DNA of 38,908 nucleotides, taken from assembly GCA_013334395.1 (NCBI GenBank), contig JAAXXS010000008.1:1-38908 (forward strand). Reading direction: 5' to 3'. Every line of letters starts with the position of its first letter. The stretch's first letter is position 1. Positions 5,165-38,775 of this stretch are shown piece by piece. The translations under genes and the position numbers were made by a program. The notes under the pieces are model-generated. The model did not search any database. It saw nothing but the letters and a program-made list of their open reading frames with translations, and had not been told where the DNA came from. Origin of the DNA: Holophagaceae bacterium. Its GTDB lineage: Bacteria; Acidobacteriota; Holophagae; Holophagales; Holophagaceae.

Positions 5165-6460
5165 CTATTCCGGGGTGAGGACGCCGCGCTCCTCGCGGTA
5201 GGCGAACAGTTCGCCGAAGCGGCCCCACGCGACCACGGTCTCAAAGGTCTGCTCGGGGTCCTCCATGGGCAGGCGCGTGGCCAGCTCCTGGAGCAGCACT
5301 TCCTTGGGCAGTTCGCCCTCCTGCAGCTCGATCATCTCCCGCACCACGCGGAACAGCCGGAGCTCCAGCAGCTGGGCGCGCCAGAGGTCCTTGCGGTCGT
5401 CCATGTTGGCGTTCACGAACTTCTTGCCCAGGGCCGTGAGCAGCACCGCGCGCTTGGGGGTGTCGACCAGGTCGAGCATCTCCGCGGCCTTCACGGTGGT
5501 GAGGACCCGCTCGAAGGGCACGTGGGTGTGGGAGGCCACCTGGAAGAGGTCGCTGGTGCCGCCCTGGGCTTCCACGAACTCCAGGAGGCCCAGGATGTCG
5601 GCGCTCTGGACCTGGGGCAGGGGCTCCACCTGATCGTCCTCGGAGGCGCTGAGGATGGGGGCGGAGATCAGGACGTCCGGCAGCTCCGCGCTGGTGATGA
5701 GGTCGTGGATGTGATCCACCAGCTTCATGAACTCAGGCGAGCGGCTGTCCCGGGGGCGGGGCAGGGGGATGTCCACCACGGTGCGGAGGATGCCGGGCGC
5801 GCCGGAGAGGATGGCCACGCGGTCGGCCATGAGCAGCGCTTCGCGGATGGACTGGCTCACCATGACGATGGCGGACGGGTTGCGCTCCTTGTCCGCCCAG
5901 ATGTCCATGATCTCCGCGCGGAGGGCCTCGGCCGTGAGGGCGTCCACCTGGCTGAAGGGCTCGTCCATGATCAGGATCTCGGGATCCACCGCCAGGGCCC
6001 GGGCCACGCCGACGCGCTGCTTGGTGCCGCGCGAGAGCTCCCGGGGGAAGGCCTCCTCGAAGCCCTCGAGACCCACCTTGCGGATGGCCTGGTGGGCCTT
6101 CTCACGCACCTCGCCCTCGGGCAGGTCCCGGGCGCGGAGCACCACCCGGACATTCTCTTCCACGGTCATCCAGGGATAGAGGGCGAAGGTCTGGAACACC
6201 ATGGCGACGCCGGGGTTGAGGCCCTCGAGCTTCTCGCCGTGGTGGCGCACCTCGCCCTGGGTGGGCACCAGCAGGCCCGAGAGGATGCGCAGCAGGGTGG
6301 ACTTGCCACAGCCGTTGGGGCCGATGAGGGACAGGATCTCATCGGGCCGCACCTCGAGGCGGATGTCCTCCAGTACGCGCTGCACCTTGCCCTTGGGGCC
6401 CGAGAAGCGCATCTGGATGCCACGCAGTTCACAGATGGGAGCGCCGTAGGTTTGTTGCAT
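5165..6460 (-). CDS. ABC transporter ATP-binding protein (nitrate/sulfonate/bicarbonate type) with C-terminal AAA-associated domain
   Basis: A 431-residue cytoplasmic ATPase of an ABC importer. Residues 10-240 form the nucleotide-binding domain: Walker A GPNGCGKST (47-55), Q-loop Gln90, and Walker B ILIMDE (162-167). Residues about 290-420 match the AAA-associated C-terminal extension seen in this subfamily (PF09821-like). Two motifs are unusual: the signature reads LSRGT instead of LSGGx (142-146), and the H-loop His is replaced by Gln203 (VSQSIREA instead of VTHxxxEA), confirmed as CAG in the DNA. The start ATG has GAGG upstream and lies 7 nt after the permease stop, so the two are an operon. 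No substrate-binding protein gene is nearby. The substrate is unknown. Confidence 0.85.
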   Translation of the reverse strand: MQQTYGAPICELRGIQMRFSGPKGKVQRVLEDIRLEVRPDEILSLIGPNGCGKSTLLRILSGLLVPTQGEVRHHGEKLEGLNPGVAMVFQTFALYPWMTVEENVRVVLRARDLPEGEVREKAHQAIRKVGLEGFEEAFPRELSRGTKQRVGVARALAVDPEILIMDEPFSQVDALTAEALRAEIMDIWADKERNPSAIVMVSQSIREALLMADRVAILSGAPGILRTVVDIPLPRPRDSRSPEFMKLVDHIHDLITSAELPDVLISAPILSASEDDQVEPLPQVQSADILGLLEFVEAQGGTSDLFQVASHTHVPFERVLTTVKAAEMLDLVDTPKRAVLLTALGKKFVNANMDDRKDLWRAQLLELRLFRVVREMIELQEGELPKEVLLQELATRLPMEDPEQTFETVVAWGRFGELFAYREERGVLTPE

Positions 6461-6467
6461 GACGACC

Positions 6468-8216
6468 TCAGCGGTTCAGGGCGTAGCGGGTTTCCGCCAG
6501 CCGATAGAGGGGGACCCAGACGAGGCGGTTGAAGACCACCACCAGGCCGGCCATGAGCAGGGCGCTGGCGGCCAGGTTGGGCATGGAGCCCTGGTCCGTG
6601 GCCAGCACCACCTCGGCGCCGAGGCCGAAGGTGCGGAGGGTCTGGTGCTTGGCGGTGACGATCTCGGTGACGATGCTGGCGTTCCAGGCCCCGCCCGTGG
6701 CCGTCACCCAGCCCGTGACCAGGTAGGGGAACACCGCCGGGAAGTAGAGGGTCCAGCACCGCTTCCACAGCGACAGCCGGTAGGCCCGGGAGGCCTCGCG
6801 CAGGTCGGCGGGGATGGCCTGCGCCCCCGCGATGATGTTGAACAGCAGATACCACTGGGTGGACAGCACCATGAGCAGGACACAGCTGACGCCCAGGCCG
6901 ATGCCCATGCCCTGGAAGATCAGGATGAGGCTGGCGAAGATCAGGGAGGACGGGAAGGAGGCCGCCACCTGCACCACGGACTGGAGGCGCCGGGACCATT
7001 TCGGCGACATGCCGATCCAGAGGCCCACGGGCAGGGTCCAGAGGGTGGCCAGGAAGGTGGAGAGCAGGACCCGCGACAGGGAGGCACCGCCCGCCTTCAG
7101 CAGCTGCAGCCACTTGGCGGGGCTCACATCCACCAGCAGCCGCACTACGGAGAGCCCGCCCAGGGCCAGCAGCCCCAGCATGGCGATCAGCGCCGAGGCG
7201 GCGAACCAGGGCGCCAGCCGGCCCGGGCGCTTGAAGCTCTCCTCCGCCTGGGCGAGGAGCACGGGCCGGGGCCGCCGCCGGTGGAGGCGCTGGTTCCGCT
7301 TTGCCTCCAGCCAGCGCAGCAGCCGGGAGCGGCGCAGGAAGCGCAGCAGCCAGTTGTCGTTGGGCTCCACCTCGGCGGATTCATCCACCTGGAAGCGCTG
7401 GGACCAGGCCACCACGGGGCGCCAGACCAGCTGGTCCAGCAGGATGACCAGGGCCAGCATGGTGAGGATCGCGTAGACCTGGGCGCGGCCGTTGCCCTGC
7501 TCCACCGCGGTGTTCATGTAGGAACCCACGCCGGGGAGCTGGAAGTTCTTGTCACCGGCCTTGAAGGCCTCCGCGGTCATGAGGAAGAACCAGCTGTTGG
7601 CCACGCTCACCATGGAGTTCCACACCAGGCCGGGCGTGGCGAAGGGGATCTCGAGCCAGCGCAGCCGCTGCAGCCAGCTGAAGCCGAACAGCCCGGCGGT
7701 CTCCTCCAGATCCTTGGGCAGGGTCTTCAGCGACTGGTAGAAGCTGAATGCCATGTTCCAGGCCTGGCAGGTGACGATGAGCAGCACCGCCGAGAGCTCG
7801 AGCCCGACGTTGCTGCGCGGGAACAGCGTGAGCATCAGCAGCAGCACCGGCGGCAGGAAGGCCAGCATGGGCACGCTCTGGAGGATGTCCAGGATGGGCA
7901 CCAGGAAGCGCTCCGCCAGGGGATCCTTCGCGGCCCAGTAGGCCACCACCAGCGTGAAGGCGAGGGACACCGCGTAGGCGGCGATGGCGCGGATCAGGGA
8001 GAGCAGCACGTACTTGGGCAGGGCCCAGGCGCTGAGGTCGATCACCACCGAGGGCCGCTGCACGGCGGTCCACTCCCGGCCCACCAGCCAGAGCGCCGCC
8101 AGGGTGCTCACCAGGGCGGCGAGCACCAGCAGATCGATCCACCGGCGACGGCGGATGGGCGCTGTGATCAGGTTGGTGGCCTGGCCCCAGACGGTGTCGA
8201 GCAAGCGATGGATCAT
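6468..8216 (-). CDS. ABC transporter permease, two fused BPD_transp_1 modules
   Basis: About 582 residues with two complete permease modules in one chain. Each carries an EAA-type cytoplasmic loop: the first near residues 166-188 (LPKDLEETAGLFGFS), the second near 467-490 (IPADLREASRAYRLS). A hydrophilic, Arg-rich linker (around residues 280-330) joins them. Single-chain double permeases of this sort pair with ATPases carrying the AAA-associated domain, which is exactly the next gene. The start is uncertain: ATG at 8216 or an in-frame ATG at 8267 (17 residues longer). Neither has a clear Shine-Dalgarno sequence, so translation may be coupled to the upstream leader ORF. Confidence 0.85.
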   Translation of the reverse strand: MIHRLLDTVWGQATNLITAPIRRRRWIDLLVLAALVSTLAALWLVGREWTAVQRPSVVIDLSAWALPKYVLLSLIRAIAAYAVSLAFTLVVAYWAAKDPLAERFLVPILDILQSVPMLAFLPPVLLLMLTLFPRSNVGLELSAVLLIVTCQAWNMAFSFYQSLKTLPKDLEETAGLFGFSWLQRLRWLEIPFATPGLVWNSMVSVANSWFFLMTAEAFKAGDKNFQLPGVGSYMNTAVEQGNGRAQVYAILTMLALVILLDQLVWRPVVAWSQRFQVDESAEVEPNDNWLLRFLRRSRLLRWLEAKRNQRLHRRRPRPVLLAQAEESFKRPGRLAPWFAASALIAMLGLLALGGLSVVRLLVDVSPAKWLQLLKAGGASLSRVLLSTFLATLWTLPVGLWIGMSPKWSRRLQSVVQVAASFPSSLIFASLILIFQGMGIGLGVSCVLLMVLSTQWYLLFNIIAGAQAIPADLREASRAYRLSLWKRCWTLYFPAVFPYLVTGWVTATGGAWNASIVTEIVTAKHQTLRTFGLGAEVVLATDQGSMPNLAASALLMAGLVVVFNRLVWVPLYRLAETRYALNR

Positions 8217-8304
8217 GGCCGGTCCGGAGGATTGGAGGCGGCGCCACCAGGAGCGCCGCCATCCCATTCAGGGTGCGGATTCGGGAGAGCGGACGGGCGC
8301 CACC

Positions 8305-8358
8305 TCAGCGGGCGGCGCGTCTCGACGGAGGTTCGGAGAGGTCGGCGTGTCGTCCCAT
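8305..8358 (-). CDS. Candidate 17-residue leader peptide upstream of the ABC importer
   Basis: A short ORF reading MGRHADLSEPPSRRAAR and then TGA. Its ATG is preceded by AAAGGAGG with a 5-nt gap, one of the best ribosome binding sites in the window, whereas the permease behind it has none. A plausible promoter lies just upstream. The ORF is out of frame with the permease and ends 37 or 88 nt before it, depending on the permease start. The RHxDL string recalls short leader peptides annotated upstream of sulfur-compound transporters in actinobacteria, although the Cys of those peptides is missing. A role in translational regulation is inference. Confidence 0.45.
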   Translation of the reverse strand: MGRHADLSEPPSRRAAR

Positions 8359-8391
8359 CGGAACCTCCTTTCCGGCCTCGGGGCCAAGGCC

Positions 8392-8421
8392 AGTCTGCCC
8401 CACCCCGGAGGCGGGGGTCAA
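8392..8421 (-). promoter_or_regulatory. Predicted promoter for leader ORF and ABC importer
   Basis: On the minus strand TTGACC (8416-8421) is followed after 18 nt by CAGACT (8392-8397). The -35 matches 5 of 6 and the -10 matches 3 of 6. The implied start near 8385 leaves a short 5' leader before the Shine-Dalgarno sequence at 8363-8370. Confidence 0.4.
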
Positions 8422-8438
8422 CCCATGGACCCGAGATA

Positions 8439-9392
8439 TTACGGCCTCGGTACAGCCTGGAGCAGCTGGGTGATGACCTGGTCTGTGGTGGCACCGTCGG
8501 CCTCGCTCTCGAAGGTGAGCAAGAGGCGGTGGCGCAGCACGTCCGGGGCCAGGTCCACGATGTCCTGGGGCAGCACATGGTCCCGGCCCTGGAGGTAGGC
8601 CAGGGCCCGGGAGGCCGCCTGCAGGGACAGGGAGGCCCGGGGGCTGGCCCCGCAGCGCAGCAGCTCCTTGCCCTTCCAGGACTTGCCCTGGCCCGGCCGG
8701 GTGGCCTGGACCAGCCGCACGATGTAGGCGCGGATCGCCTCGTCCAGTCGCACCTGCTGGGCCTCGCGGCCCGCGGCCAGCAGGCTGGGGCCGTCCACCA
8801 CGGGATTCACCTCGTCACCGTTCAGGTGGGCGCGGCGCAGGACCTCGATCTCTTCCTCGTGCTTGGGGTAGTCCACCCGCAGCTTGAAGAGGAAGCGGTC
8901 CATCTGGGCCTCGGGCAGGGGGAAGGTGCCCTCCTGCTCCAGGGGATTCTGAGTGGCCAGCACCAGGAAGGGGTCCGGCAGCTTGAAGCTCTCGTCGCCC
9001 AGGGTCACCTGGCGCTCCTCCATGGCCTCCAGGAGGGCCGCCTGCACCTTGGACGGGGCACGGTTGATCTCGTCCGCCAGCACGAGGTTCGCGAAGACCG
9101 GGCCGCGCTTGGGCGTGAAGGTGAGCTGTCGGGGATCGAAGATCAGGGTGCCCACCACGTCGCTGGGCAGCAGATCCGGGGTGAACTGGATGCGGCGGAA
9201 GCTGGTGTGGCTGGCCGAGGCCAGGGTCTTGATGGTGCGGGTCTTGGCCAGGCCCGGCAGGCCCTCCAGCAGCACGTGGCCCCGGCAGAGCAGGGCCACC
9301 AGCAGCCGGTTGAGCAGCAGGGACTGGCCCACGATCACCTTGCGGCACTCGGTGAGCAGGGGTTCCAGGGAATGGGGGGCGGCGGTGGTCAT
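8439..9392 (-). CDS. MoxR-family AAA+ ATPase
   Basis: A 317-residue chaperone-like AAA+ ATPase. Visible motifs are Walker A GLPGLAKT, Walker B LVLADEIN followed by RAPSKVQAALLEAMEE, the sensor-1 region ATQNPLEQEGTFPLPEAQMDRF, and the C-terminal lid domain. MoxR proteins usually act with neighbouring DUF58 and VWA proteins in assembling or activating other complexes. Neither partner is encoded here: the next genes on this strand are the ABC importer. The ATG at 9392 was chosen because the family N-terminus begins close to it; ATGs at 9416 and 9458 are in-frame alternatives and none has a clear Shine-Dalgarno sequence. The gene is divergent from the thiolase operon. Confidence 0.88.
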   Translation of the reverse strand: MTTAAPHSLEPLLTECRKVIVGQSLLLNRLLVALLCRGHVLLEGLPGLAKTRTIKTLASASHTSFRRIQFTPDLLPSDVVGTLIFDPRQLTFTPKRGPVFANLVLADEINRAPSKVQAALLEAMEERQVTLGDESFKLPDPFLVLATQNPLEQEGTFPLPEAQMDRFLFKLRVDYPKHEEEIEVLRRAHLNGDEVNPVVDGPSLLAAGREAQQVRLDEAIRAYIVRLVQATRPGQGKSWKGKELLRCGASPRASLSLQAASRALAYLQGRDHVLPQDIVDLAPDVLRHRLLLTFESEADGATTDQVITQLLQAVPRP

Positions 9393-28554: not shown

Positions 28555-28571
28555 CCTAGCTTCTTACCCAT

Positions 28572-28604
28572 AAAAATCGTGGCCCAGTTGGGCCACGATT
28601 TTTT
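28572..28604. terminator. Bidirectional terminator between secDF and the hybrid kinase
   Basis: Perfect 14-bp stem AAAAATCGTGGCCC/GGGCCACGATTTTT with loop AGTT. The A-tract and T-tract make it functional on both strands, which suits the convergent genes on either side. Confidence 0.93.
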
Positions 28605-28635
28605 GTTGCGCTGCGCGCCGCCGGAACCTCCACCT

Positions 28636-30972
28636 TCAGAGCCACCCTGAAAGGACCTGCTCCAGCTCCAGGGCCGAGAAGGGTTTCTTGAGGACCCTGA
28701 CATCGGGGAAGCGGCTCAGGATATGGGGGATCCGGTCATCCGCGAAGCCGGTGGCGAACAGGACGGGCTGGCGAGGCCGGAGGCGCCGGAGGCGCTCCAG
28801 GGTCTCGCTGCCATCCATGCCCGGCATGCTCAGATCGAGGACCACCAGATCAGGGTTCGCCTCGGCCTGCAGCTGCTGCAGGGCCTCCCGGCCGCCCGCC
28901 GCGATCTGGACCTCATGCCCCAGGAGCTCCAGCAGCCGCTGGACCGCCGTGCGGATGAGCTCCTCATCGTCCACCAGGAGGATGCGGAGCGACCGGGAGG
29001 GCAGTGGCTGACTGGGCACCGGGGTGATTGCGTGGGGTGCGTCCTCTTCCACCGATGGAAAGGTCAGCCGGACCTGCGTGCCCAGGCCGGGTCGGCTCTG
29101 GATGTCCACGGTGCCGCCGTGGGCCTTCATGGTGCCGTAGACCTGGGACAGGCCGAGGCCGGTGCCCTTGCCGAGCGCCTTGGTGGTGAAGAAGGGCTCC
29201 AGGGCCCGGTTGAGGACCTCGGGGCTCATCCCCTCGCCGTTGTCCTCTATGGAGAGTTCCAGGTGGCCATGGCCGATCCTGCGTGTGCGGAGGTGGATCC
29301 TGCCGCCCTGGGTCAGGGCGTCGCAGGCGTTCATGCAGACGTTCATCAAGGCATTCCTCAGGGCGCTGCTCTCCCCGAAGACGGGCGGCAGCCCCGCTTC
29401 CAGGTCCAGCTCGAAGGCCACCTTCTTGAGCGTGGTCCGCTCCAGGAGGTCCACCTCGCCCCGCACCAGCTCGTTGAGGTCCAGCTCGGTGGCCGACTCC
29501 AGCTCCTTGCGGCTGAAGTCCCGGAGGTTCCGAACCAGGTCCCGGCCACGGATGGCCGCCCGCAGCAGCAGGTCCGCGTCCTTCAGGATCTCGGGCCGGT
29601 CCCGGTGGCGCTCCTTCAGGATCGAGCCCACGGCCATGATGGTGGAGAGCACGTTGTTCATGTCATGGGCGACCCCGCCCGCCAGCCGACCCACGCTCTC
29701 CATGCGCTGGAGGTGCTGGACCTGGGCCTCGAAGGCGGCACGCTCCTTCTCGATACGGCTGCGCTCGGTGATGTCGAAGCAGGTGACCACTGCACCCACC
29801 AGGGCGCCTTCCTGATACTGGGGGTAGGACCAGTATTCCACCGGGATGCAGGTGCCATCGGCCCGCCAGAACACCTCCTCCCCGCTGTTGCTGCCCTTGC
29901 CTTCGGCGAGGGCCCGGAAGATCCGGCAGGCCTCCATCGGGTGGGGCGAGCCGTCCGGGCGGGAGTGGTGGATGACCTGGTGCATGTTGTGGCCCACCAG
30001 GGCCGAGGCCTCCGGGTAGCCGAGGATCTCCAGGAGGGCCCGGTTGCAGAAGGTGCACCGGCCCTGCAGGTCGATGCCGAAGATCCCCTCGGTGGTGGAA
30101 TCCAGGACGCTGGCGAGGAGGGCCGTGCGCTGGGTCAGGCTCAGCTCGGCCTGGCGGCGCTGGGTGATGTCGATGGCGGTGCCGATGTAGCGGACCAGGT
30201 TGCCCGCGGGATCCAGGACCGGGTAGGCCCGGGACAGAAGCCAGCAGTCGGCGCCATCGGGGCGGTTCACCCGCCACTCGAAGTCCAGCTCGGCCTTCTG
30301 CCCGACTCCGTTGCTCACGATGGCGGTGACGCGCGAGCGGTCCTCGGGATGGATCGCCTGGATCCAGGCCTCGTAGGAGGGGGCCACGCTGCCCGGCTCC
30401 AGGCCATAGAGGCGGAAGAGGTTGTCCGACCAGTCATTCCGGTTCGACCCGAGGTTCCAGGTCCACCAGCCGATGGTCGCCAGGTTCTCGGTCATCTTCA
30501 GCAGCGCCTCCTCCTCCCGGAGGGCCATGGCCTTCTCCTGGTAGCGCTGCTTCAGGTCGCGGGTGAGCGTCGCCAGCTCATTGGAGGTGCCGCTGAGCAC
30601 ATCCAGGGCCTGGGCGGTGGCTGGCAGGATGCGCTCGCCGATGAGGATGGACTGACCCAGGTAGGGGAAGCAGTAGGCATGCAGGGAGGTGCCGATGACC
30701 TGGGGATCCACCAGCTTCAGGTGGCTGGGGTGCTGCTCGAAGGCCCGGGGATCCGGTTCCACCGGGCGGCCATCCTGCCTCAGGACAAACCGTGACAGGG
30801 GCTGACCTTCCAGAGTCTCTTCCCGGGACGGGAACAGACTCTGGAAGGCGGCGTTGCACTCCTGGAGCCGTCCGTTCTCGTCCATGCGGACCAGCACCAC
30901 CGACTTGGAGACGCGCGCCAGGAAGCCCGCCAGCAGCGAGACCAGGGGGGGATCGATCTCAGTCCAGCTCAT
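28636..30972 (-). CDS. PAS-domain hybrid histidine kinase with C-terminal receiver
   Basis: About 778 residues with no transmembrane helix, so a cytosolic sensor. Order: an N-terminal PAS-like region (10-110), a coiled-coil stretch (about 150-180), PAS 2 (190-300, ending YIGTAIDITQRR), PAS 3 (300-420, ending TCFDITERSRIEKE), the HisKA helix with phospho-His436 in GGVAHDMNN, an ATPase domain with NVCMNACDAL, DNGEGM and GTGLGLSQVYG, and a receiver with phospho-Asp713 in VVLDLSMPGMDG and Lys in VLKKPF. The ATG at 30972 is chosen because MSWTEIDPP begins the domain region and overlaps the preceding gene by 14 nt. Upstream in-frame sequence is antisense-like Arg/Pro/Ser-rich translation of that gene. 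It is coupled to the B12-binding protein. Confidence 0.9.
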   Translation of the reverse strand: MSWTEIDPPLVSLLAGFLARVSKSVVLVRMDENGRLQECNAAFQSLFPSREETLEGQPLSRFVLRQDGRPVEPDPRAFEQHPSHLKLVDPQVIGTSLHAYCFPYLGQSILIGERILPATAQALDVLSGTSNELATLTRDLKQRYQEKAMALREEEALLKMTENLATIGWWTWNLGSNRNDWSDNLFRLYGLEPGSVAPSYEAWIQAIHPEDRSRVTAIVSNGVGQKAELDFEWRVNRPDGADCWLLSRAYPVLDPAGNLVRYIGTAIDITQRRQAELSLTQRTALLASVLDSTTEGIFGIDLQGRCTFCNRALLEILGYPEASALVGHNMHQVIHHSRPDGSPHPMEACRIFRALAEGKGSNSGEEVFWRADGTCIPVEYWSYPQYQEGALVGAVVTCFDITERSRIEKERAAFEAQVQHLQRMESVGRLAGGVAHDMNNVLSTIMAVGSILKERHRDRPEILKDADLLLRAAIRGRDLVRNLRDFSRKELESATELDLNELVRGEVDLLERTTLKKVAFELDLEAGLPPVFGESSALRNALMNVCMNACDALTQGGRIHLRTRRIGHGHLELSIEDNGEGMSPEVLNRALEPFFTTKALGKGTGLGLSQVYGTMKAHGGTVDIQSRPGLGTQVRLTFPSVEEDAPHAITPVPSQPLPSRSLRILLVDDEELIRTAVQRLLELLGHEVQIAAGGREALQQLQAEANPDLVVLDLSMPGMDGSETLERLRRLRPRQPVLFATGFADDRIPHILSRFPDVRVLKKPFSALELEQVLSGWL

Positions 30973-32065
30973 CACCGGCCTCGAACCAGGACTCGGCGAG
31001 CAGACAGGCCCCGGCGGCATCCCTGGCCTCCCCGTCCGCGCCGATGCTTGCCGCGAGCCCCGGCGTGTCCTGGAAGACCCGTCCCCCGACCATGATCCGG
31101 GGGGTCCAGTCCCCCGCATACTGGCGGATCCTGGCAATGAGCTCGGCGGTATTCCGGAGGTTGAAGGACATGGTCACCGAGAGGGCCAGCACGGCCGGGC
31201 GGAAGTCGTCCAGGGTCGACAGGAGCGCCTCGGAGGGCGTGTCGGCCCCGAGGAAACGCGTCTGCCAGCCCCGCACCTCCAGCAGATCCGAGATCATCCA
31301 GGCGCCGATCTGGTGGTGCTCGTTGGGGCTTGCGCTCACCACGCAGCGCTTCCTGGGGTGGCTCGGGGAGTCGATCTTGGCGAAGGCCTTCGACATCATC
31401 CGGATCACCAGGGACGACGCCATGTGCTCCTGGGCCGTGGTGATCCGGGCCTGCTCCCAGAGCCGCCCGATCTCCCGCATGGCGGGGTCCAGCATCTCCA
31501 GGTAGAAGCGCTCCAGGTCCTGGGGCGCGGCCATGTAGTCCCGGGTCACGGCGTCCGTCCAGGTGGGATCCCCCGTCACCAGCGACTCGACGAAGGCCGC
31601 CAGGGTGCTGCCGTCTGGTGCGGGTCCCGCGGCGGAATCATCGGGCTGACTGGCGGCTTCGATCAGGTCGGTGTGGTGGTCGAGCATCCAGTCGTAGACC
31701 GCCAGGAGCGGGGCGGCGGCCGGGCCAGGAATCTGCTCGGTGATGGCTTGCTGCCAGGCCCGCAGCTCGACGGGGAAGTAGTCCATGGAGACCCCGCGGG
31801 CGCCATAGACCCGGTAGACCCAGGGGAGGGTCTTCACCAGCAGCTGCGTGTTCCCCAGAAAGAAGACGTTGTCCATGAACTTGGCGTGGTTCGCGTGGTT
31901 CTGCTGGATGAGGTCGAAGGGGTTGGGTCCGATGAGCTGGCCCAGCTGGGGGTGGTGGAGGACCGCCTGGTCCACCGCCGCGGCCAGCTGGTCGCGGCCC
32001 TGGTGGTAGGCGAGGCTCGAGGCCGCAGGAGGCATGACTGGACCTGCGTTCGCGCCGACCCCCAT
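30959..32065 (-). CDS. Cobalamin-binding sensor-like protein (B12-binding domain)
   Basis: About 368 residues. The C-terminal half has a four-helix cobalamin-cap module with W203-x9-E213-H214 (LWEQARITTAQEHMAS) and a B12-binding Rossmann fold with E249-x-H251-x-x-G254 (NEHHQIG), followed by a glycine-containing MVGGRVF strand. These are the signatures of CarH/LitR/AerR-type B12 sensors. There is no MerR DNA-binding domain. Instead the N-terminal 130 residues form an unrecognised helical domain (LPWVYRVYGARGVSMDYF). The gene overlaps the hybrid kinase gene, so it probably feeds a light or cobalamin signal into that kinase. The start ATG at 32065 has GGGGGT upstream; an in-frame TTG at 32110 and ATG at 32035 are alternatives. 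Confidence 0.85.
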   Translation of the reverse strand: MGVGANAGPVMPPAASSLAYHQGRDQLAAAVDQAVLHHPQLGQLIGPNPFDLIQQNHANHAKFMDNVFFLGNTQLLVKTLPWVYRVYGARGVSMDYFPVELRAWQQAITEQIPGPAAAPLLAVYDWMLDHHTDLIEAASQPDDSAAGPAPDGSTLAAFVESLVTGDPTWTDAVTRDYMAAPQDLERFYLEMLDPAMREIGRLWEQARITTAQEHMASSLVIRMMSKAFAKIDSPSHPRKRCVVSASPNEHHQIGAWMISDLLEVRGWQTRFLGADTPSEALLSTLDDFRPAVLALSVTMSFNLRNTAELIARIRQYAGDWTPRIMVGGRVFQDTPGLAASIGADGEARDAAGACLLAESWFEAGDELD

Positions 32066-32160
32066 AAGAGACCCCCGGATAAACAGATTTCTCGGCAGGG
32101 GTGGGGGCAATCCTTAAATTAATTCGTTAAAAATTATCGATATTTTCTGAAGTCAGCCCA

Positions 32161-34922: not shown

Positions 34923-35399
34923 ATGCAGAAATCCCTCCACATCGATCCCAACAAGTGCACGGGCTGTCTCCAGTGCGAGATGGCGTGCTCCTGGGAGAAC
35001 CACCGCAGCTTCACCATCGCCAAGTCCCGCATCAAGGTGTTCTCGTTCCACGAGGCCGCGCGCTTCGTGCCCTACACCTGCACCCAGTGCGACGAGGCCT
35101 GGTGCATGATGGCGTGCCCCACGGAGGCCATCAAGCTGGACCCGGTCACCGGCGCGAAGATCGTGCTGGATCCCACCTGCGTCGGCTGCAAGGTATGCAC
35201 CATCGCCTGCCCCTTCGGCACCATCAACTACGTGGCCTCCAGCGGCAAGGTGCAGAAGTGCGACCTCTGCGGCGGTGCGCCCGCCTGCGCCAAGGCCTGC
35301 CCCACGGGCGCCATCACCTTCGTGGACGCCGACTGGACCGGACTGGAAAAGATGCGCCAGTGGGCTGACAAGACCGACACCAACCCGGCAACGGTGTGA
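34923..35399 (+). CDS. aorA: Four-cluster ferredoxin-like subunit of aldehyde oxidoreductase (AorA-like)
   Basis: A 158-residue Fe-S protein with 16 Cys arranged for four [4Fe-4S] clusters: CTGCLQCEMAC, CTQCDEAWCMMAC, CVGCKVCTIAC and KCDLCGGAPACAKAC. This is the DmsB/HycB-type fold. Being directly before the tungsten enzyme gene it matches AorA of Aromatoleum aromaticum, which transfers electrons between the W-pterin subunit and the FAD subunit and stacks into filaments. AGGAGG lies 6 nt before the ATG. A 12-nt gap leads to aorB. Function as a generic electron carrier cannot be excluded from sequence alone. Confidence 0.88.
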   Translation: MQKSLHIDPNKCTGCLQCEMACSWENHRSFTIAKSRIKVFSFHEAARFVPYTCTQCDEAWCMMACPTEAIKLDPVTGAKIVLDPTCVGCKVCTIACPFGTINYVASSGKVQKCDLCGGAPACAKACPTGAITFVDADWTGLEKMRQWADKTDTNPATV

Positions 35400-35411
35400 G
35401 GAGCGACTGCC

Positions 35412-37262
35412 ATGGCATGGACTAAGAAGGTTCTTCGCGTAAACCTCACGGCGGGCACCTGCAGCACCGAACCCCTGAACCAGCAGTGGGCCCAGGACTA
35501 CCTGGGCCAGCGGGGCCTGGCCACCAAGTATCTCTGCTCCGAGATCGATCCCAAGGTCGATCCCCTGGCCGAAGGGAACAAGCTCATCTTCGTGACCGGT
35601 CCCCTCACGGGCACTATGGCCGCCACGGGTGGCCGCTACTCCGTGGTCACCAAGGGGCCCCTCACGGGCGCCATCGCCTGCTCCAACTCCGGCGGCTACT
35701 TCGGCGCCGAGCTGAAGTTCGCGGGCTGGGACATGGTGATCTTCGAGGGCCGCTCCGCAAAGCCGGTCTACCTGCTCATCATCGATGGCAAGGCCGAGCT
35801 GCTGGACGCCTCCCACCTGTGGGGCACGACCACCTGGCACACCGAGGAGACCATCAAGAAGCAGCACCAGGATCCCCAGATCCGCGTGGCCTCCATCGGC
35901 CGCGCCGGTGAGTCGGGCGTCATGTATGCCGCCATCGTCAACGACCTCCACCGCGCCGCGGGGCGGTCCGGCGTGGGCGCGGTCATGGGCTCCAAGAACC
36001 TCAAGGCCGTGGCGGTGCGCGGCACGCTCACCGACGCCTACCAGGTGGCCAATCCCGAGGCCTTCTTCACCGCCGTGGACGCGGGCAAGGCCGTGCTGGC
36101 GGCCAACGGTGTGACCGGCGTGGGCCTGCCCACCTACGGCACCCAGGTGCTCATGAACATCATCAACGAGCTGGGCGCGCTGCCCAGCTACAACCACCGC
36201 GAAGCGCAGTTCGAGGGCGCGAACGCCATCGGCGGCGAGGCCATGCATGAGAAGCGGCCCACGGATGGCAAGCCCAACCTGATCAAGAACGGCGCCTGCT
36301 TCGGCTGCACCATCGCCTGCGGCCGCATCTCCCGCATGGATCCGAACCACTTCAGCGTGAAGGACAAGCCCCAGTACCACGGCGCCTCCGGCGGCGTGGA
36401 GTACGAGGCCGCCTGGGCCCTGGGCGCCGCCAACGGCGTGTCGGACCTGGAAGCCCTCACCTACGCCAACTTCCTCTGCAACGAGGACGGCTACGACCCC
36501 ATCTCCTTCGGGGCCACCGTGGGCGCGGCCATGGAGCTTTACGACCTGGGCATCCTCACCGAGGCCGAGGTGGGCCTCAAGCTGACCTGGGGCTCCGCGG
36601 AGGCCCTGGTCAAGCTCGCGGAGTGGACTGCCGTCGGCGAAGGCTTCGGCAAGATCATCGGCCTCGGCTCCAAGCGGCTCTGCGCCAAGTACGGCCGCCC
36701 TGAGCTGTCCATGACCGTCAAGGGCCAGGAGTTCCCGGCCTACGATGGCCGCGGCCTGCAGGGCATGGGCCTGGAATACGCCACCAGCAACCGCGGCGCC
36801 TGCCACGTCCGCGGCTACATGGTCTCTCCCGAAGTGCTGGGCATTCCCGTGAAGATGGAGCCCCAGGCCACCGAGGGCAAGCCTGCCATGCTGAAGGCCT
36901 TCCAGGACCTCACCGCCGTGGTGGATTCTGCCGGCATCTGCCTCTTTACCACCTTCGCCTGGGGCCTGCAGGACATCCAGCCCCAGATCCAGGCCGCCTG
37001 CGAGGGCGACTGGTCTGAGGAGCGGCTGCTCCTGGTGGGCGAGCGCATCTGGAACCTGGAGCGCGAGTTCAACCTGGGCGCAGGCCTCAGCAAGAAGGAC
37101 GACACCCTGCCGCCCCGCCTGCTGACGGAGGCCATCAAGACCGGTCCCCAGAAGGGCGCCGTGTGCCACCTGGACAAGATGCTGCCGGAGTACTATGAGG
37201 TCCGCGGGTGGACCGCCGAAGGCGTGCCGACCCCCGCCACCCGCACCCGTCTCAGCCTCTGA
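35412..37262 (+). CDS. aorB: Tungsten-containing aldehyde:ferredoxin oxidoreductase, catalytic subunit (AorB-like)
   Basis: A 616-residue enzyme of the AOR family, carrying a tungsten bis-pyranopterin cofactor and one [4Fe-4S] cluster. Cluster Cys are C296-x2-C299-x3-C303 (CFGCTIACG) and C510 (DSAGICLF). Candidate active-site residues are Glu332 (GGVEYEAAW) and His465 (RGACHVRGY), aligned by eye with the Glu and His of archaeal AOR. The family opening region KVLRVNLTAGTCSTEPL and the pterin region GPLTGAIACSNSGGYFGAELK are present. It would oxidise aldehydes to acids or run in reverse with low-potential electrons. GAGGAG overlaps the aorA stop and serves as the ribosome binding site. Substrate preference and the metal (W, not Mo) are inferred from the family. 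Confidence 0.93.
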   Translation: MAWTKKVLRVNLTAGTCSTEPLNQQWAQDYLGQRGLATKYLCSEIDPKVDPLAEGNKLIFVTGPLTGTMAATGGRYSVVTKGPLTGAIACSNSGGYFGAELKFAGWDMVIFEGRSAKPVYLLIIDGKAELLDASHLWGTTTWHTEETIKKQHQDPQIRVASIGRAGESGVMYAAIVNDLHRAAGRSGVGAVMGSKNLKAVAVRGTLTDAYQVANPEAFFTAVDAGKAVLAANGVTGVGLPTYGTQVLMNIINELGALPSYNHREAQFEGANAIGGEAMHEKRPTDGKPNLIKNGACFGCTIACGRISRMDPNHFSVKDKPQYHGASGGVEYEAAWALGAANGVSDLEALTYANFLCNEDGYDPISFGATVGAAMELYDLGILTEAEVGLKLTWGSAEALVKLAEWTAVGEGFGKIIGLGSKRLCAKYGRPELSMTVKGQEFPAYDGRGLQGMGLEYATSNRGACHVRGYMVSPEVLGIPVKMEPQATEGKPAMLKAFQDLTAVVDSAGICLFTTFAWGLQDIQPQIQAACEGDWSEERLLLVGERIWNLEREFNLGAGLSKKDDTLPPRLLTEAIKTGPQKGAVCHLDKMLPEYYEVRGWTAEGVPTPATRTRLSL

Positions 37263-37279
37263 CCCAGCCCAGGATCCCC

Positions 37280-38524
37280 ATGCGACACGTCATCATCGGA
37301 AGCGGTCCCGCGGGTGTGGTTGCCGCGGAGACCCTGCGCAAGGCCGACCCCGCCGCAGAGGTCTTCATGCTCTGCGGCGAAGGGGAGGCACCCTACTCCC
37401 GCATGGCCATCCCCTACCTGCTGAGGGGGGACATCGGCGAGGAGGGCACCCACCTCCGGAAGACCGCAGACCACTTCCAGCGGCTGCGCATCGGGCTGGT
37501 CCAGGCCCGCGCCCACGCCGTGAATGCCGCCGCCCGCACCGTGGATCTGGGCGAGGGCCATCTCCTCGCCTATGACCGCCTGCTCATCGCCACGGGCTCG
37601 CGACCCAGCCTCGAGAAGATCCCGGGCATCGACCTGCCCGGGGTCCAGGCCTGCTGGACCCTCGCCGATGCCCGCGCCATCCTGGCCAAGGCCCAGCCCG
37701 GCACCCGCATTGTCCAGATGGGCGCCGGCTTCGTGGGCTGCATCATCATGGAGGGCCTGCTCTCCAAGGGCGTGGACCTGACAATCCTGGTCCGCAGCGG
37801 CTACATGGTCCGCCGCATGATGAACCCCGCCGCCAGCAACATGCTGCGCCGCTGGTGCGAGGCCAAGGGCGTGAAGATCCTGACCCGCACCCAGCCCAAG
37901 GGTCTGAGCCAGCAGGACGGTGTCCTCCAGGTGGACCTGGGCGAGGGACGGGTGCTGCCCGCCGACGTCTACCTCAGCGCCGTGGGCGTGGACCCGAACC
38001 TGGAGTTCCTGGCCGGCAGCGGCATCGAGATCAACCACGGCATCGTGGTGGACGCGCACCTGCAGAGCAGCGTGCCCGGCATCTACGCCGCCGGGGACGT
38101 GGCCGAGTCCGTGGACTGCCTCAGCGGCAAGCGCCAGGTCAACGCCATCCAGCCCAACGCCGTGGAGCAGGGCCGCATCGCGGCGCTGAACATGGTCGGC
38201 AAGCCCACGGCCTTCCAGGGCAGCCTGGTGTTCAACGTGCTCACCACCCTGGGCCTCATCTCCTCGTCCTTCGGCGAGTGGGAGGGCGTGCCCGGCGGCG
38301 AGTCCACGGAGCTGCTAGACGAGGCCCGCTACCGCTACATGAACCTGCAGTTCGACGGCGACCGCCTGGTCGGCGCCAACACCGTGGGCTTCACCGATCA
38401 CGTCGGCGCCCTGCGCGGACTCATCGAAGGGAAGCTGCGGCTGGGCCCCTGGAAGCAGCGCCTGCTGGACGATCCCACGCTGGTCATGCCGGCCTACCTC
38501 GCGGCGGCTCACCGCCTGGCATGA
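37280..38524 (+). CDS. aorC: FAD/NAD(P)-binding oxidoreductase subunit (AorC-like)
   Basis: A 414-residue flavoprotein with an N-terminal FAD motif (VIIGSGPAGVVAAETLR), a central NAD-binding motif (IVQMGAGFVGCIIMEGL) and the C-terminal FAD motif GIYAAGDVAE. This is the pyridine nucleotide-disulphide oxidoreductase fold without the redox-active Cys pair. In the Aromatoleum enzyme the equivalent AorC joins the complex to NAD+/NADH. It begins 17 nt after aorB with AGGAT in front of the ATG, and its stop overlaps the MoaD-like gene by ATGA. An upstream in-frame Met at 37208 is rejected, being inside aorB and giving a non-homologous Arg/Pro-rich leader. Confidence 0.9.
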   Translation: MRHVIIGSGPAGVVAAETLRKADPAAEVFMLCGEGEAPYSRMAIPYLLRGDIGEEGTHLRKTADHFQRLRIGLVQARAHAVNAAARTVDLGEGHLLAYDRLLIATGSRPSLEKIPGIDLPGVQACWTLADARAILAKAQPGTRIVQMGAGFVGCIIMEGLLSKGVDLTILVRSGYMVRRMMNPAASNMLRRWCEAKGVKILTRTQPKGLSQQDGVLQVDLGEGRVLPADVYLSAVGVDPNLEFLAGSGIEINHGIVVDAHLQSSVPGIYAAGDVAESVDCLSGKRQVNAIQPNAVEQGRIAALNMVGKPTAFQGSLVFNVLTTLGLISSSFGEWEGVPGGESTELLDEARYRYMNLQFDGDRLVGANTVGFTDHVGALRGLIEGKLRLGPWKQRLLDDPTLVMPAYLAAAHRLA

Positions 38525-38775
38525 AGATCACGCTCAAGCTGTTCGCGTCCCTCAGCCTCCGCCTCCCTGCGGAGGCCCGCTCCAGCCACTGCCTGGAGCT
38601 GGAGGTCGATCCCGGCACCACCGTGCTGGACGTGATCCTGCGCATGGGGCTGCAGTCGGCGGAGTGCGCCATCGTGCTGGTGGACGGCGTCTGGGTGGCC
38701 ACGGGCGACCGGGCCACGAAGGTGCTGGAAGCGGGCCAGGCGCTTGCCATCTGGCCGCCCGTCGCCGGTGGCTAG
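38521..38775 (+). CDS. aorD: MoaD/ThiS-family sulfur carrier protein
   Basis: An 84-residue ubiquitin-fold protein ending in Gly-Gly (PPVAGG), the thiocarboxylate site of MoaD and ThiS. The N-terminus ITLKLFASLSLRLP and the TTVLDVI segment are typical of MoaD. A dedicated copy inside AOR operons is thought to provide sulfur for the tungsten pterin cofactor of this enzyme. Its ATG overlaps the stop of the flavoprotein gene (ATGA), and the following ORF begins within its last codons. Confidence 0.88.
   Translation: MKITLKLFASLSLRLPAEARSSHCLELEVDPGTTVLDVILRMGLQSAECAIVLVDGVWVATGDRATKVLEAGQALAIWPPVAGG

Follow-up and report, generated by a model that had tools for sequence, protein, structure and literature searches.

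The DNA analyzed here, referred to below as the window, is a stretch of 38,908 nt from a Holophagaceae bacterium. Two overlapping genes on its minus strand, one for a globin–B12 sensor and the other for its partner kinase, lie between secDF and arnD (28555-32160), and their features are collected in Table 1. Use of ATG 32065 as the start of the sensor gene is supported by a conserved GGGG approximately 7 nt upstream and by conservation of the extension in three relatives; sensor residues are nevertheless numbered here in the 358-aa form that begins at the internal ATG 32035. The sensor stop codon is at 30961–30959 and the kinase ATG at 30972, which gives an overlap of exactly 14 nt, with every base identical in three close relatives. 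The original prediction of such an overlap with a hybrid histidine kinase gene was exact: the product has the PAS/HisKA/HATPase_c/REC arrangement, with the His of HisKA and the Asp of the receiver in place.

Table 1 Features of the sensor and kinase genes
Feature	Residues	Coordinates	Strand	Length or basis
Globin–B12 sensor gene		30959..32065	(-)	368 aa from ATG 32065
Photoglobin domain, seven helices	1-128	31652..32035	(-)	Profile and fold model
Residue aligned with biliverdin-anchoring Asp270 of SasPcob	N46	31898..31900	(-)	Alignment
Residue aligned with biliverdin D-ring Trp296 of SasPcob	W72	31820..31822	(-)	Invariant, 51/51
B12-binding four-helix bundle (B12-binding_2)	144-218	31382..31606	(-)	Pfam and model
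Adenosyl-pocket motif, W193-x9-E203-H204		31424..31459	(-)
B12-binding Rossmann domain	228-350	30986..31354	(-)	Pfam and model
Expected lower axial ligand of cobalt	H241	31313..31315	(-)	Invariant, 51/51
Overlap of sensor stop and kinase start		30959..30972	(-)	14 nt; kept in close relatives
Partner hybrid histidine kinase		28636..30972	(-)	778 aa; Pfam and reading
Kinase linker helix with S-N-E-L motif	122-145	30538..30609	(-)
Two PAS domains of kinase	about 180-403	29764..30435	(-)
HisKA (H436 at nt 29667) and HATPase_c of kinase		29053..29691	(-)
Receiver domain of kinase (D713 at nt 28836)		28654..28983	(-)

The sensor was found in four of 47 genomes of the genus, and the kinase in all four. 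Because secDF and arnD flank a different stretch in G002, G032, and G118, where the unit is missing (in G002 and G032 the stretch encodes an alpha/beta-hydrolase), the unit is judged from these comparisons to occupy a variable spot. Neither a cobalamin riboswitch nor any other Rfam family was found in the window. By reading only, genes for a ferredoxin, an aldehyde:ferredoxin-oxidoreductase-like protein, a flavin oxidoreductase, and a MoaD-like protein stand in a row at 34923-38775.

Domains of the sensor

The original prediction described a CarH-type B12 domain bearing W-x9-EH and E-x-H-x-x-G motifs and joined to no DNA-binding domain. Both motifs were found, as W193-EQARITTAQ-E203-H204 and E239-x-H241-x-x-G244, in an intact B12 domain, and there was no MerR match. 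They are not chance occurrences, since Pfam matched B12-binding_2 (3.2e-12) and B12-binding (7.8e-18), and the NCBIfam CarH model matched at 2.2e-16, over the B12 part only and far under the model cut-off. W193, E203, and H241 were invariant among 51 relatives, and H204 was present in 50 of them. The W-x9-EH adenosyl pocket has been published as the hallmark of light-responsive B12 domains (PMC11796333), whose full signature is GxxW/EH/GxxH/GxxxP (SignatureFinder; PMC11796333). The sensor fits three of these four places (G190-R-L-W193, E203-H204, and G263-A-D-T-P267); GxxH is absent and reads N238-E-H-H241, a change also seen in three relatives (L044, L075, and L076). At the position of CarH His132 the sensor has Glu194, and a bis-His light adduct is therefore not expected.

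In sequence, the nearest relatives of the B12 domain were the photocobilins (8j2w/8j2x, about 5e-16). In fold, the B12 half was nearest to 8j2y (Z 25.3) and 8j2x (24.8), with CarH and methionine synthase behind. Foldseek with the model of the full sensor (pLDDT 91.2) did place CarH at the top; that ranking, probably a consequence of the permuted domain order in the solved photocobilins, was overruled by a second structural comparison and a domain-only model. Assignment to CarH was rejected because the MerR-type DNA-binding domain is absent and the N-terminus is a globin.

The N-terminal domain had been called unrecognised, which proved wrong once the profile search suggested with that claim was run. 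Pfam was silent on this domain, and phmmer with the single N-terminal sequence found no match in the PDB. Family profiles were then built with 51 relatives of the sensor. The full profile matched SasPcob in two stretches and also reached allophycocyanins; the N-terminal-only profile matched the C-terminal globin of SasPcob (8.9e-12), AbDPcob (9e-9), allophycocyanin (2.6e-8), and smURFP (3.9e-5). A profile made without the sensor's own clade still recovered its N-terminal domain (E 2.5e-9). The domain-only model (pLDDT 88.6) was nearest to smURFP (Z 15.5), allophycocyanins (about 14), and SasPcob (12.9), but Foldseek E-values for the globin alone were weak (best 0.04), so the assignment rests on the sequence profile. 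By profile and model, then, the N-terminal domain is a photoglobin, a phycobiliprotein-type domain related to the globins that bind pigment in cyanobacterial antennae.

The chain thus combines a photoglobin with a CarH-type B12 domain that has W-x9-EH and E/DxH. Placing it in a B12 receptor class of its own was rejected, as it is one of the photoglobin–B12 ('photocobilin') proteins, a group described earlier (PMC10979010). From the profiles and models the sensor is a standalone protein of this type with its domain order reversed relative to SasPcob, in which B12 comes first; both orders have been described (PMC10979010). The membership proposed is one of photoglobin–B12 architecture, with two-chromophore function set aside.

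Chromophores and cofactors

In SasPcob, biliverdin is held by Asp270 and Trp296 (PMC10979010). Alignment to SasPcob, in which Trp61/Glu71/His72 served to set the six-residue offset, placed these residues at N46 and W72 of the sensor. The Trp column was Trp throughout the family. In the Asp270 column, most kinase-linked members had D, the Holophagaceae clade had N, and a clade without kinase neighbors had mostly H. Retention of the Asp is not strictly a defining trait of photocobilins: AbDPcob has His there and is still counted as one, with a biliverdin occupancy of only about 20% (PMC10979010). Because N46 replaces the Asp, and His at this place weakens binding in AbDPcob, biliverdin binding by the sensor globin is doubtful.

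The supposition that every host makes biliverdin with heme oxygenase failed: heme oxygenase (PF01126) was present in only 5 of 48 genomes holding the sensor family, and gaps in the MAGs account for only part of this scarcity. Within the genus it was found in two of the four genomes with the sensor and in none of the 43 without it, a contrast among near kin that is not counted as proof. The sensor's own genome, in which no phytochrome was found, encodes a heme oxygenase that carries a globin-like domain at its C-terminus (L133:3679-4941, contig C271), and such fusions occurred in 3 of 77 family genomes (this one, L115, and L132:361-1707). The globin-like domain gave profile E-values of 4.5e-5 (G140) and 0.0024 (G000) in a small search and 0.023 in a larger one, with a profile–profile probability of 71%. 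Both biliverdin-pocket residues, the Asp and the Trp, appear to be retained in this domain, whereas the sensor globin keeps the Trp only. Two myxobacterial loci (L092 and L099) contain heme oxygenase, a B12 protein, and a double globin, like the clusters in PMC10151467.

These data bear on a stronger form of the sensor–kinase explanation, compatible with it, in which the globin binds biliverdin from the host's own heme oxygenase and sensing reaches red light. The nearest folds are bilin-binding globins, W72 is invariant, the host's heme oxygenase fusion has no phytochrome to explain it, and in the family-mate G140 the fusion gene precedes a B12-protein gene. We nonetheless consider this form rather unlikely, given that Asn replaces Asp270 throughout the Holophagaceae clade as well as in the globin of G143, that heme oxygenase is missing from half of the genus members with the sensor, and that binding is so incomplete in AbDPcob.

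Several of the host groups are usually thought to be anaerobic, and light sensing is not obvious there. In another reading, the protein is a corrinoid-status or redox sensor that informs the kinase of how much AdoCbl is available, or of AdoCbl as against aquo-cobalamin, and light is incidental. This reading accords with hosts that include, by record label, Anaerolineae, Cloacimonas, Treponema, and Lokiarchaeota, with the lack of heme oxygenase in most of them, and with the altered GxxH. It fits poorly with an invariant W-x9-EH pocket of the kind published as a mark of light response (PMC11796333), with the close kinship to photocobilins, and with the presence in the same genome of two CarH/LitR-like MerR–B12 proteins that have W-x9-EH and GxxH (L151:900-1889 and L152:1149-2006); we regard it as unlikely. 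The host encodes a PduO-type cobalamin adenosyltransferase and on that basis can make AdoCbl.

Association with a histidine kinase

The original prediction was to be abandoned if related genomes lacked a conserved kinase neighborhood. We surveyed 80 loci, of which 56 were informative relatives with the sensor itself counted, and scored as paired any same-strand histidine kinase ORF whose start overlapped the sensor end or lay within 35 nt of it. A histidine kinase gene was directly downstream in 37 of the 56, many with 4-nt ATGA overlaps, and L061, a single 955-aa chain with the order globin–B12–NNEL linker–HK–REC, brought the total to 38; the prediction withstood this check. At a background of 0.05 kinases per gene, the rough binomial P for 38/56 was about 1e-35, uncorrected for kinship. 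The paired relatives came from at least 10 phyla by record label (Acidobacteriota, Chloroflexota, Bacillota, Pseudomonadota, Spirochaetota, Armatimonadota, Cloacimonadota, Gemmatimonadota, and Myxococcota, as well as one Lokiarchaeote). On the tree, the kinase-neighbor label was clustered, with 8 changes versus 18 in shuffles.

Other arrangements were also found. The gene order in L079 is B12, globin, kinase. In G143, which belongs to the same family, the components are encoded separately within a single operon (L131:5832-8221): a B12 protein, a PAS kinase, and a globin of the Asn type, together with a hybrid kinase. This is an unfused form of the sensor–kinase unit. The L061 locus (5908-8775) reads globin–B12–HK–REC–REC; its record label, a Klebsiella pneumoniae MAG, looks mistaken because the protein falls among Sulfuritalea and Competibacter-type relatives. 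One well-supported related clade of 13, with 12 informative members, had no kinase neighbor. Members of this sister clade (L080, L084, L086, L087, L089, L090, L093, L096, L097, L107, and L114) mostly have His at the biliverdin Asp, an NxHD-type cobalt motif, and His at the CarH His132 position.

The partner kinases also share a sequence feature. An [NST]NEL linker was present in 29 of 37 partner kinases versus 2 of 43 other kinase ORFs found at these loci (with near copies counted, P about 4e-12). The typical linker is LSRLNNELVxLQRELAKKN, and the partner of the sensor studied here has LSGTSNELATLTRDL. In the L061 fusion the NNEL motif joins the B12 domain to HisKA. We infer that this helix is the point where the sensor acts on the kinase.

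That the sensor has a different target, with no role for the adjacent kinase, as the sister clade without a kinase and the variable location within the genus might suggest, is very improbable in view of pairing over at least 10 phyla, translational overlaps, a natural fusion, the family-mate operon with separate genes, and a partner-specific linker. The analysis establishes which domains are present, that the pocket residues are intact, that the two genes overlap, that the pairing is conserved, and that a linker motif and one natural fusion exist, and from these comparisons we conclude that sensor–kinase coupling is real and widespread.

A proposed model for the sensor–kinase unit

We think it fairly likely that the two genes form a unit in which a photoglobin–B12 sensor acts in trans on its partner kinase. 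Light releases the adenosyl group from the AdoCbl bound by CarH and SasPcob, and both proteins dissociate into monomers; light-state SasPcob activates a separate diguanylate cyclase via protein contact (PMC10979010), the precedent for control in trans. By analogy, the sensor would take AdoCbl in its CarH-type pocket and in the dark form a head-to-tail dimer like those of CarH and SasPcob. Green or blue light would break the Co–C bond, expel the adenosyl group, and open the dimer. The globin would lie against the corrin edge, either holding a linear tetrapyrrole or serving as a structural lid. The changed surface of the sensor would then act on the kinase, probably at the N-terminal PAS/[NST]NEL linker helix leading into the HisKA dimer, and would shift the autokinase/phosphatase balance, with phosphate passing from H436 to D713 and on to an unlinked Hpt or response regulator.

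Light sensing by adenosylcobalamin is likely, and the sensor probably turns its partner on or off; AdoCbl binding, the light response, the contact in trans, the direction of control, and the output genes are all inferred. The unit is favored by the photocobilin-like B12 domain with its invariant pocket, the photoglobin, the pairing, the fusion, the linker, and the adenosyltransferase. The model is weakened by NEHH in place of GxxH, by Asn46 in place of Asp270, by the absence of heme oxygenase from 43 of 48 genomes, by the related clade without a kinase, and by the fact that no light-regulated output gene was identified.

Among known systems, SasPcob (the standalone photocobilin of Saccharothrix syringae, PDB 8J2W/8J2X) shares with the sensor a photoglobin, a CarH-type B12 domain with W-x9-EH, the axial His, the bilin-pocket Trp, and a chain with no output domain; the sensor differs in being globin-first, in Asn46, in Asn238 at the Gly of GxxH, and in having a kinase partner next door. 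AbDPcob (PDB 8J2Y), a photocobilin–diguanylate cyclase fusion, has the same two sensory domains and likewise a replacement of Asp270, but carries its GGDEF output in the chain, whereas the sensor has a separate histidine kinase. Both photocobilins, like the sensor, have no His at the CarH His132 position. CarH/LitR proteins (PDB 5C8D and others) share the B12 domain fold and adenosyl pocket, but the sensor has a globin instead of their MerR DNA-binding domain, and lacks the His132 equivalent. AerR (PDB 7TE2) is also a B12 protein that has no DNA-binding domain and works via a partner protein (PMC6199135); it has no globin, its partner is the transcription factor CrtJ, and its sequence match is far weaker. 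The BBAG-2 clusters (PMC10151467) bring together globin, B12 protein, and heme oxygenase, and their globin lineage includes photoglobins; there globin and B12 are separate genes, whereas the sensor is one chain with a kinase.

The class of the sensor protein is already known; the putatively trans-acting, kinase-coupled photoglobin–B12 sensor is the new part. The abstract of the 2022 photoglobin survey by Schneider et al. reportedly speaks of association with signal-transduction domains, and the histidine-kinase pairing may already be recorded there. Histidine kinases are unmentioned in the main text of PMC10979010, which demonstrated photocobilin function with a fused diguanylate cyclase and described the part played by standalone photocobilins as less clear. 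For these standalone proteins, a conserved kinase partner, a linker motif, and a natural fusion now provide a testable target, and the near-absence of heme oxygenase in the hosts poses the question of whether the globin has a ligand or only a structural role. The sensor–kinase pair is also a ready candidate for green-light two-component optogenetics.

More tentatively, and at somewhat less than an even chance, the unit may represent a two-protein class in which sensor and kinase are separate, action in trans goes via a dedicated [NST]NEL linker helix of the kinase, and the globin, having lost its biliverdin anchor in the clade studied here, is either a lid or the binding site of some other tetrapyrrole. 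If true, this would be a two-protein, B12-driven, light-gated phosphorelay in organisms without heme oxygenase, and a widespread photoreceptor class.
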